This document shows positions 21,352 to 22,833 of a stretch of DNA of 64,000 nt, one piece after another. Source of the stretch: Daejeonella oryzae DSM 19973 (GTDB lineage: Bacteria > Bacteroidota > Bacteroidia > Sphingobacteriales > Sphingobacteriaceae); the NCBI RefSeq assembly GCF_000422945.1, contig NZ_AUHA01000003.1, positions 310,001 through 374,000 on the forward strand. Reading direction: 5' to 3'. The position numbers and the translations under genes are program-made. The notes beneath the pieces were generated by a model. It was not told where the DNA came from. It ran no database searches and saw only the letters and a list, made by a program, of their open reading frames with translations. Position 1 is the stretch's first letter. Each line of letters begins with the position of its first letter.

Positions 21352-21435
21352 GTCCACGCGGCCTTTCAACCAGTCATCCCGGGCTTTCATTTTGTCATCC
21401 CGGGTTTTCGGTTTGTCATCCCGGCCTTTCAGCTT
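21352..21435. repeat. 21-bp tandem array, four copies
   Basis: Copies start at 21352 (degenerate), 21373, 21394 and 21415, each exactly 21 bp. The last three begin GTCATCCCGG followed by a CTTTC/TTTTC variant. The next 21-bp step, 21436, is the first base of the first full 78-bp unit. The 21-mer is the left end of that unit copied in tandem. Confidence 0.9.
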
Positions 21436-21957
21436 GTCATCCCGGGCTCGACCCGGGATCCCATTTAGATGATTGCGCATTCATTAGGGATTGCGGATCA
21501 AGCCCGCAATGACGGTTGGAAAGAATGCGTAATTATAGCGGCAGGCACGTATCGCTCTTTTGTCATCATTTTCTTATTTGCCAGTCATCCCGGGCCCGAC
21601 CCCGGATCCCATTTAGATGATTGCGCATTCATTAGGGATTGCGGGTCAAGCCCGCAATGACGGTTGGAAAGAATGCGTAATTATAGCGGCAGGCACGTAT
21701 CGCTCTTTTGTCATCATTTTCTTATTTGCCAGTCATCCCGGGCCCGACCCAGGATCTCATCTATGGTAATACGCATGTGTTAGGGATTGTGGGTGGAGCC
21801 TGCAATGACGGTTGGAAACAATGCGTAATTATAAAGGCAGGCATGTATCGCTCTTTTGTCATCGGTTTCTTATTTGCCAGTCATCCCGGGCCCGATCCGG
21901 GATCTCATTTAGATGACTGCGCATTTGTTAGGGATTGCGGGTCGAGCCCGCAATGAC
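21436..21957. repeat. Four 78-bp double-hairpin units in exact 148-bp tandem
   Basis: Units occupy 21436-21513, 21584-21661, 21732-21809 and 21880-21957. Each begins GTCATCCCGGG and ends GCAATGAC, so the ends are inverted (GTCAT/ATGAC). The left half folds as CCCGGG-n5-CCCGGG and the right half as GCGGG-TCAAG-CCCGC. The 70-bp spacers are also nearly identical to one another, the first two exactly so, meaning the whole 148-bp block was duplicated. The third unit is the most diverged. It carries no reading frame of its own that makes sense. Confidence 0.93.
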
Positions 21958-22013
21958 CGCGTGGAAGAGAGACTGCATGACAGTGTTGATGGGAAATTAT
22001 ATATAGTCACAAT

Positions 22014-22304
22014 TTATATAAACCACTTTTCTGACAAATCATTCCATTCAGGGTTTTTTTTTTCTATTAGTTGGTTTTTCCAGTTCCGTTGCCAATTTTT
22101 TAATTGCTTTTCCCGGGATATGGCTTCTTTTACAGTACTGTATTCTTCATACCAAACAAGTTTATTACAATTGTATTTTGAAGTAAAACCTTTGTTAATT
22201 TTTTGAATGTGTTCGTACACTCTTCTTTCTAAATTATTCGTTACGCCAATGTAAAGTACAGTGCAGTTTTTATTGGTTATCATATAAACGAAATACAAGT
22301 TCAT
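22014..22304 (-). CDS. GIY-YIG nuclease family protein (UPF0213-type)
   Basis: A 96-residue single-domain GIY-YIG endonuclease: VYMIT for GIY, LYIGVTNNLERRVYEH for YIG with the catalytic Arg and His, KLVWYEEY, the metal-binding Glu region in AISREKQLKNW, and a WRNWKNQLIEKKNPEWNDL tail. It is an intact gene embedded in the middle of the palindromic repeat array, 57 bp from one unit and 40 bp from a decayed half-unit. Stand-alone GIY-YIG proteins of this type are abundant in Bacteroidota and have no settled function. The setting suggests a link to the repeats, comparable with REP-associated transposases. Confidence 0.88.
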   Translation of the reverse strand: MNLYFVYMITNKNCTVLYIGVTNNLERRVYEHIQKINKGFTSKYNCNKLVWYEEYSTVKEAISREKQLKNWQRNWKNQLIEKKNPEWNDLSEKWFI

Positions 22305-22343
22305 ACTTGAATTTACAAAATCTCAAAGAAAGTAAACTGTTTA

Positions 22344-22463
22344 TGGAATTGTGGGTCAAACCTCAATAATAGTTTAAGAGCGTATGTTCAATCCGGGCCC
22401 GACGCGGGATCTAATTGAAGACACTTTAGATTTGTTAGGGATTTGGGGCGAGCCCGCAATGAC
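22344..22463. repeat. Decayed palindromic half-unit and one diverged full unit
   Basis: Bases 22344-22369 are a degraded right half (GTGGGTCAAACCTC in place of GCGGGTCAAGCCCGC). Bases 22386-22463 are a full unit with a changed left hairpin (CCGGGCCCGACGCGGG) and the intact end CGCAATGAC. They flank the GIY-YIG gene on its promoter side. Confidence 0.8.
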
Positions 22464-22562
22464 AGCGTGTAACGAGAGTGGGCAAGGAGAGTATAAAAGA
22501 GAAGATTTTAATAACAGGATAAGGTTAGGGCTCCCTGGTGTCATCACTTTTCTTATTGGCCA

Positions 22563-22833
22563 TTCATCCCGGGCCCGACCCGGGATCTCATCCATGGTAA
22601 TACGCATTCATTAGGGATTGCGGGTCGAGCCCGCAATGACGTTTGTAAACAAAGCGTAATTATAGCGGCAGGCATGTATCGCTCAGTTGTCATCACTTTC
22701 TTATTTGCCAGTCATTCCGGGCTCGACCCGGAATCTCATTTAGAGGACTGCGCATTCATTAGGGATTGCGGGTCAAGCCCGCAATGACTGATAGGAGTGG
22801 AAGTTCTTTAACGCTTGGGCCCGACCCGGGACC
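22563..22833. repeat. Two more 78-bp units at 148-bp period plus a terminal half-unit
   Basis: Units at 22563-22640 and 22711-22788 share the 148-bp spacing and the same 70-bp spacer family as the left array. A left-hairpin half (GGGCCCGACCCGGG) at about 22816-22831 lies just before the stop codon of the minus-strand lipoprotein gene and could act as its terminator. Confidence 0.9.

Follow-up and report, generated by a model that had tools for sequence, protein, structure and literature searches.

A small GIY-YIG nuclease gene among tagged palindromes of Daejeonella oryzae: a probable nuclease-repeat system

Background

Ssn is a nuclease family of the GIY-YIG type from Neisseria. According to a paper from 2025, it reportedly cuts DNA single strands at a repeat of that genus, and a role in modulating natural transformation there has also been ascribed to it. 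Palindromes with a tag beside the stem have been described from other bacteria. In the CGTC-tagged superfamily of REP elements the tag is CGTC, TGTC or CCTC in many cases and lies outside a stem of 8–9 bp, which begins with AT and encloses a loop of 4–5 nucleotides, the hairpins being mostly arranged as head-to-head dimers (Di Nocera et al. 2013, PMC3733652, in the parts of that survey used here). The same parts of the survey describe this superfamily as apparently without a dedicated transposase and do not report CGTC repeats at tyrosine transposase genes; the tag of RAYT-linked REPs is given as GTAG (PMC3733652). Here we describe a locus of Daejeonella oryzae DSM 19973 in which palindromes of this kind surround a small GIY-YIG gene.

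The array and its gene

The window, i.e. the whole analysed stretch of 64,000 nucleotides (contig NZ_AUHA01000003.1, positions 310,001 to 374,000), contains an array of palindrome-pair units around a GIY-YIG gene (Table 1). A first-pass annotation made from the sequence had described seven 78-bp units with GTCAT/ATGAC inverted ends. All seven were recovered by a repeat search, but one is decayed and one base pair shorter, and ATGAC is found at the right end of every unit whereas GTCAT is intact at the left end of five, the others reading TTCAA (unit 5) and TTCAT (unit 6). Column identity across the seven aligned units averages 89%, and each unit consists of two hairpins in opposite orientation with the tags pointing outward. 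Two hairpin patterns, with up to three mismatches allowed, gave 11 and 7 matches in the window and none in 100 dinucleotide shuffles; by these shuffles and by local controls, a chance origin of the array is ruled out. When eight single hairpins were folded as DNA, six formed a stem of 8 with a loop of 5 and two a stem of 7 with a loop of 7, and the GTC of the window units stayed unpaired. Four of the six start-to-start intervals measure 148 bp, one 78-bp unit and its 70-bp spacer taken together. The remaining two are 507 bp, with the gene inside, and 176 bp, after the decayed unit; the spacers adjoining the gene on both sides fall outside the 70-bp family as judged by eye. The head halves to the left of unit 1 and the decayed half unit beside the gene were both absent from the earlier description.

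Table 1. Features of the palindrome array and its gene (positions in the window)
Feature	Position	Strand	Evidence
Palindrome-pair unit 1	21436..21513	+	repeat search, pattern matches, alignment, DNA folding
Palindrome-pair unit 2	21584..21661	+	repeat search, pattern matches, alignment
Palindrome-pair unit 3	21732..21809	+	repeat search, pattern matches, alignment
Palindrome-pair unit 4	21880..21957	+	repeat search, pattern matches, alignment, DNA folding
Palindrome-pair unit 5, decayed, 77 bp	22387..22463	+	repeat search, pattern match, alignment
Palindrome-pair unit 6, left end TTCAT	22563..22640	+	repeat search, pattern matches, alignment, DNA folding
Palindrome-pair unit 7	22711..22788	+	repeat search, pattern matches, alignment, DNA folding
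Decayed right half of a unit, adjoining the 5' end of the gene	~22338..22363	-	repeat family D3; folding lost
Three 21-bp repeats, each opening with the head half GTCATCCCGG	21373..21435 (starts 21373, 21394, 21415)	+	repeat family D5
GIY-YIG nuclease gene, 96 aa, single catalytic domain	22014..22304	-	PF01541 E 2.9e-20; predicted fold; conserved residues

In the whole D. oryzae genome, a model of the unit found at least 13 places, which may be an undercount since 150 of 344 candidates were scored. Seven of them form the array of the window, within 1.35 kb around the only gene of the close class defined below; five others, with E values of at most 2e-8, are distributed over four other contigs, and one is weak. 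In the covariance model the unit took the form of a single long stem instead of two hairpins, and the model served only for finding units. None of the five GIY-YIG matches in this genome lies less than 80 kb from the unit places outside the array, so the units occur without the gene, too.

The gene is intact and stands alone within the array, as first described. The predicted fold of its product is a confident GIY-YIG domain (pLDDT 96), and the closest solved structure is the UPF0213 protein BH0048 (23% identity, the sole match with an E value below 0.001), followed by Slx1 and UvrC domains; the initial label UPF0213 is thus loosely right. Family models other than PF01541, including those of homing endonucleases, gave weak matches only, and a search of a phage collection gave no match. 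The residues Y7, Y18, R28, H32, E65 and N84 (window numbering), which match the GIY-YIG catalytic set, do not vary in an alignment of 23 proteins. With 44 proteins aligned, the same holds for all of them except R28, which is conserved in at least 90%. Judged from dN/dS values of 0.05–0.16 in nine intact gene pairs, purifying selection on the nuclease is strong; one pair including a broken copy gave 0.30.

Two observations on other small GIY-YIG genes may be added. On the Sphingobium plasmids AP027312.1, AP027319.1 and AP027322.1 such a gene is annotated as excinuclease ABC subunit C, which is probably a misnaming. A separate class of small GIY-YIG open reading frames adjoins tRNA genes (L002, 1420-1812, at C1:970125 of the D. 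oryzae genome; L244-L247, L250, L253). The D. oryzae copy (L002) lies between a partial and an intact copy of the tRNA-Arg gene, and among 12 further loci a tRNA gene is present within the stretch in six, in five of them at most 150 bp from the match.

Comparison with known systems

The gonococcal homologue of the window protein, which we take to be Ssn, is identical to it at 45 of 90 positions (50%), and both share the GIY-YIG catalytic domain with its conserved catalytic residues. In the gonococcal record (chromosome-sized, deposited as a plasmid), 9 of 100 exact dRS3-like hairpins lie in the 1.5 kb around the homologue gene, compared with none in the control. The enzyme-repeat pair is therefore probably already known in Neisseria. 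Site-specific cutting of single-stranded DNA is the activity reported for Ssn; for the window protein it is putative. With free-standing GIY-YIG homing endonucleases the window protein has the catalytic fold in common; it differs from them in having no separate DNA-binding domain and in being accompanied by many palindromic repeats, which form the ends of units.

The REPtrons, i.e. RAYT genes with their REPs, also consist of a small gene bracketed by tagged palindromes and have dispersed pairs as gene-less relatives. However, their gene encodes a Y1 HUH transposase instead of a GIY-YIG nuclease, and their tag is GTAG and not GTC, as far as the survey was used here (PMC3733652). With the CGTC-tagged superfamily, as characterized in the same parts of the survey, the window palindromes share an unpaired tag, the AT-starting 8-bp stem, the loop of 5, the head-to-head dimers, clustering in some genomes and occurrence in Bacteroidetes. 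Six of the eight folded hairpins have the typical stem and loop and all seven units are head-to-head dimers, while a full CGTC or TGTC is present at one of the five intact left ends and five of the seven right ends, the first base being variable. In stem, loop and dimer arrangement the window palindromes fit this superfamily as it appears in those parts; the GIY-YIG gene sets the locus apart, none being mentioned there (PMC3733652). Our literature search for GIY-YIG together with REP-type repeats, with partial journal coverage, returned no publication joining both among the matches listed.

Repeats near the gene in relatives and in many phyla

A protein search gave matches in 47 of 60 relatives. 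From these, 48 matches of at least 53 bits were split off by hand as the close class, with up to several per genome and some of them broken; after three fragments were dropped and two tandem copies in G037 merged, 44 loci remained. The more distant GIY-YIG matches include a class at 26–32% identity, part of which, 25 loci, served as control. Within 300 bp of the close-class loci we counted 252 GTCAT/ATGAC in 26.0 kb, i.e. 9.7 per kb, compared to 1.27 per kb at a distance of 600–1500 bp; the corresponding values of the distant class are 1.73 near and 1.06 far. At least two copies are found nearby in 43 of the 44 close-class loci, compared to 8 of the 25 controls.

The same picture was obtained from a wide scan with protein alignment, evaluated for the best 80 of 571 confirmed loci, whose record names come from many phyla; all counts out of 80 refer to this set. 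Of all 5-mers, GTCAT/ATGAC is the most strongly enriched here at distances up to 300 bp, with 395 copies against 87 expected from sequence 1.5–4.5 kb away. All 80 loci carry it within this distance and 70 do so at least twice. Far sequence of 1 kb or more was available for 78 loci, and in 70 of these the near region exceeds the far one. A stop inside the match occurs in one of the 80. On these sequences, the local association of gene and repeat is not due to chance. The first-pass annotation had proposed to test whether units cluster around such genes; they do so in the immediate neighbourhood, including seven of at least 13 places in D. oryzae, but much more weakly over whole genomes (see below). 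Its reading of a nuclease-driven repeat system is supported in part, mobilisation or processing of the palindromes by the nuclease itself being putative.

The nearest exact tags, read along the gene, are most commonly GTCAT before and ATGAC after it (36 of 80), followed by ATGAC on both sides (20), ATGAC before and GTCAT after (14) and GTCAT on both sides (8), with a side missing in two. Both tags of the commonest layout lie within 130 bp of the gene in 31 of 80 loci, delimiting segments of 345–497 bp; a stem was confirmed at both ends in 25 of these 31. The window copy departs from this layout, its nearest exact plus-strand tags being ATGAC at 21977 and 22459. By eye, the downstream hairpins of a Rhizobium tumorigenes plasmid copy are tagged CTCAT instead of GTCAT. 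In Sinorhizobium meliloti CP090106.1 (L183), a partial second gene copy directly precedes the intact one and the same hairpin follows both, likewise by eye.

In 65 of the 80 loci, one or more of the tags are continued by a confirmed stem. For these 65, labelled by hand from record titles with 23 phylum-level labels, the similarity of the nucleases correlates with that of the hairpins (rho 0.29, 2080 pairs; maximum of 300 shuffles 0.15). Pairs with different phylum labels behave alike (rho 0.27, 1793 pairs; maximum of 300 shuffles 0.16). By this comparison of sequences, the repeat covaries with the nuclease, across phyla as well.

Element ends, orthologous sites and genomes without the gene

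In the genus of the window, the gene copies have a common segment of about 530 bp. Nine copies from six genomes were aligned with their flanks: on the left, similarity stops at GGTTC...GAATGACA in all nine, on the right at TGTCATTC...GAACC in seven (not in L022 and L052). The hairpins are the terminal inverted repeats of this unit, and their stems vary among the nine copies with both arms changed. Two copies contain a stop codon (L023, L026). L022 and L023 have common flanks, L024 and L052 belong to the same region, and the other five have only pieces of the element or array in common with the rest. Fixed ends and recurrence at unrelated sites would be expected of a mobile unit. Segment comparison in the groups G045 and G037 found no common segment.

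The comparison of insertion sites, which had been proposed for finding target and junction, gave presence and absence at two orthologous sites; the sequences bordering seven copies from relatives have no direct repeat in common that would indicate a target-site duplication. At the first site, the interval enclosed by the common flanks measures 1181 bp in G010, where it includes the gene, hairpins and the remnant of a gene, and 60 bp in G004, where it has no GTCAT palindrome. The second lies on Sphingobium plasmids, enclosed by fnrL and a gene for a response regulator; seven records match this interval over its full length. In the four of these that were read, the gene lies between two hairpins, one copy being frameshifted as judged by eye; of five other records, two have a single hairpin tagged at both ends without the gene and three have neither. 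In Sphingobium, AC takes the place of AT after the tag. In both cases the sequences could reflect gain or loss. A second small palindrome resembling GGTGGGTGTTATCACCAACC is present in both genomes at the orthologous site of L024 and L052, with extra copies adjoining the inserted array in G010. An empty site for the array of the window itself was sought by way of the neighbouring 189-aa gene. This gene was matched in 11 of 20 relatives, in only one of them at more than 40% identity, and the gene on the opposite side was absent from the compared stretches of relatives, so that no empty site was obtained. Rhizobium plasmid flanks gave no clean empty site among the matches listed (30 of 145 and 30 of 573 records).

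One pair pattern and its reversed control were run on 59 relatives, classified by hand. The 27 genomes with the close class gave 282 pair matches against 51 control matches, and the 32 without it 242 against 62. Of the 242, 177 come from G035, a complete genome of the same family, whose GTCAT...ATGAC pairs are of at least two sequence types with no control match; it encodes two long GIY-YIG proteins only, with neither a close homologue nor a Y1_Tnp match. A survey of the phylum (148 genomes, D. oryzae left out, gene called at E 1e-13) revealed 576 pairs against 88 control matches in 66 genomes with the gene and 457 against 83 in 81 without it (Mann-Whitney p 2.4e-5, ignoring the relatedness of the genomes). 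At least 15 excess pairs were found in 8 of the 66 and 5 of the 81 genomes (p 0.17), and many gene-bearing genomes have few perfect pairs. Over whole genomes the association is, in these sequence sets, much weaker than the local one. A rule 'no gene, no repeats' is ruled out by the repeat-rich genomes without the gene, in which repeats either persist without it or are served by something else.

Possible mechanism and alternatives

We consider it likely, with a probability of roughly 0.6, that nuclease and repeats at this locus form one system: a small nuclease with a GIY-YIG domain, probably of the Ssn type, sits among its own tagged palindromes and probably recognises them, gene and flanking palindromes forming a compact element and lone palindrome pairs being gene-less derivatives. 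The recognised feature would be a GTC that stays unpaired in front of a hairpin, the stem of which mostly begins with AT. The nuclease may cut the palindrome where it is exposed as a single-stranded hairpin, on the lagging strand or in incoming DNA, and host repair may then copy units or lose them. By such cutting and repair the element would spread and arrays like the present one would arise, with no fixed target duplication left behind. The gene of the window is intact, the adjoining palindromes are partly decayed and the array appears to have grown with the 148-bp period. The sequences themselves show local association, unit ends that are fixed within the genus of the window, recurrence in unrelated surroundings, presence or absence at orthologous sites, covariation and purifying selection; we infer the cutting and the mobilisation by the nuclease.

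The palindromes could instead be ancient or spread otherwise, with a parasitic GIY-YIG gene that uses them as repeated homing sites, cutting them and copying itself in. Such homing would suit the common occurrence of gene-less palindromes, even in genomes without the gene, the fold of homing endonucleases and the weak matches to their models. On two of the five gene-less Sphingobium plasmids, the double-tagged hairpin, compared with hairpin-gene-hairpin in four others, suggests that the gene entered or left; these two sites are compatible with a gene inside its own recognition site, which is not needed to explain the unit ends in the genus of the window. We nevertheless regard homing as unlikely: in that genus the palindromes are the ends of a common unit in otherwise unrelated surroundings and so travel with the gene, and the gene-less site of G004 is devoid of a GTCAT palindrome. 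Somewhat less credible still is a resident host function under selection, e.g. limiting natural transformation or marking recombination, with arrays arising by replication slippage only. The strong purifying selection, the role that Ssn is said to play in natural transformation of Neisseria and syntenic copies in eight Rhizobium plasmid records would agree with it, but several features resemble mobile DNA: genomes have multiple copies in unrelated places, some copies are broken, and relatives differ in presence or absence. Host function and mobility may both be true.

That a Y1 (RAYT) transposase moves the palindromes and the GIY-YIG gene is a passenger is very improbable, in spite of the RAYT-REP precedent and of one Y1_Tnp gene in the D. 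oryzae genome. The survey, in the parts used here, points away from it by reporting no CGTC repeats at tyrosine transposase genes (PMC3733652), and G025, G035, G045 and G051 contain 32, 177, 39 and 10 pairs and no Y1_Tnp match. A transposase as mover is further disfavoured since the sole Y1_Tnp match of D. oryzae lies on another contig than the window and has different palindromes (ATCGTCCGCG... and ATCCTCGTT..., by eye; L005, C1:1085968), and since 30 Y1_Tnp loci in relatives have GTCAT/ATGAC at 0.94 per kb, with ATGAC not enriched.

Conclusions

To what is reported of Ssn, our analysis may add the element structure with palindromic ends, the controlled reach over many phyla and a connection to the CGTC superfamily. 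Several phyla have CGTC-tagged palindromes, and what spreads them was left open in the parts of the 2013 survey used here (PMC3733652). With a nuclease that is co-located and covaries with the palindromes, this question becomes directly testable. If the nuclease moves the palindromes, the element would be a mobile one that relies on a nuclease and does without the chemistry of a transposase, and nature would offer a large set of small nucleases that differ in their hairpin preferences. More tentatively, and with less than even odds, GIY-YIG genes bracketed by GTC hairpins may be widespread autonomous mobile elements in which a hydrolytic nuclease and host repair replace the transposase, the CGTC-type REPs being their gene-less derivatives. 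Were this true, it would supply the enzyme for a superfamily that, in the parts of the survey used here, is said to have none.
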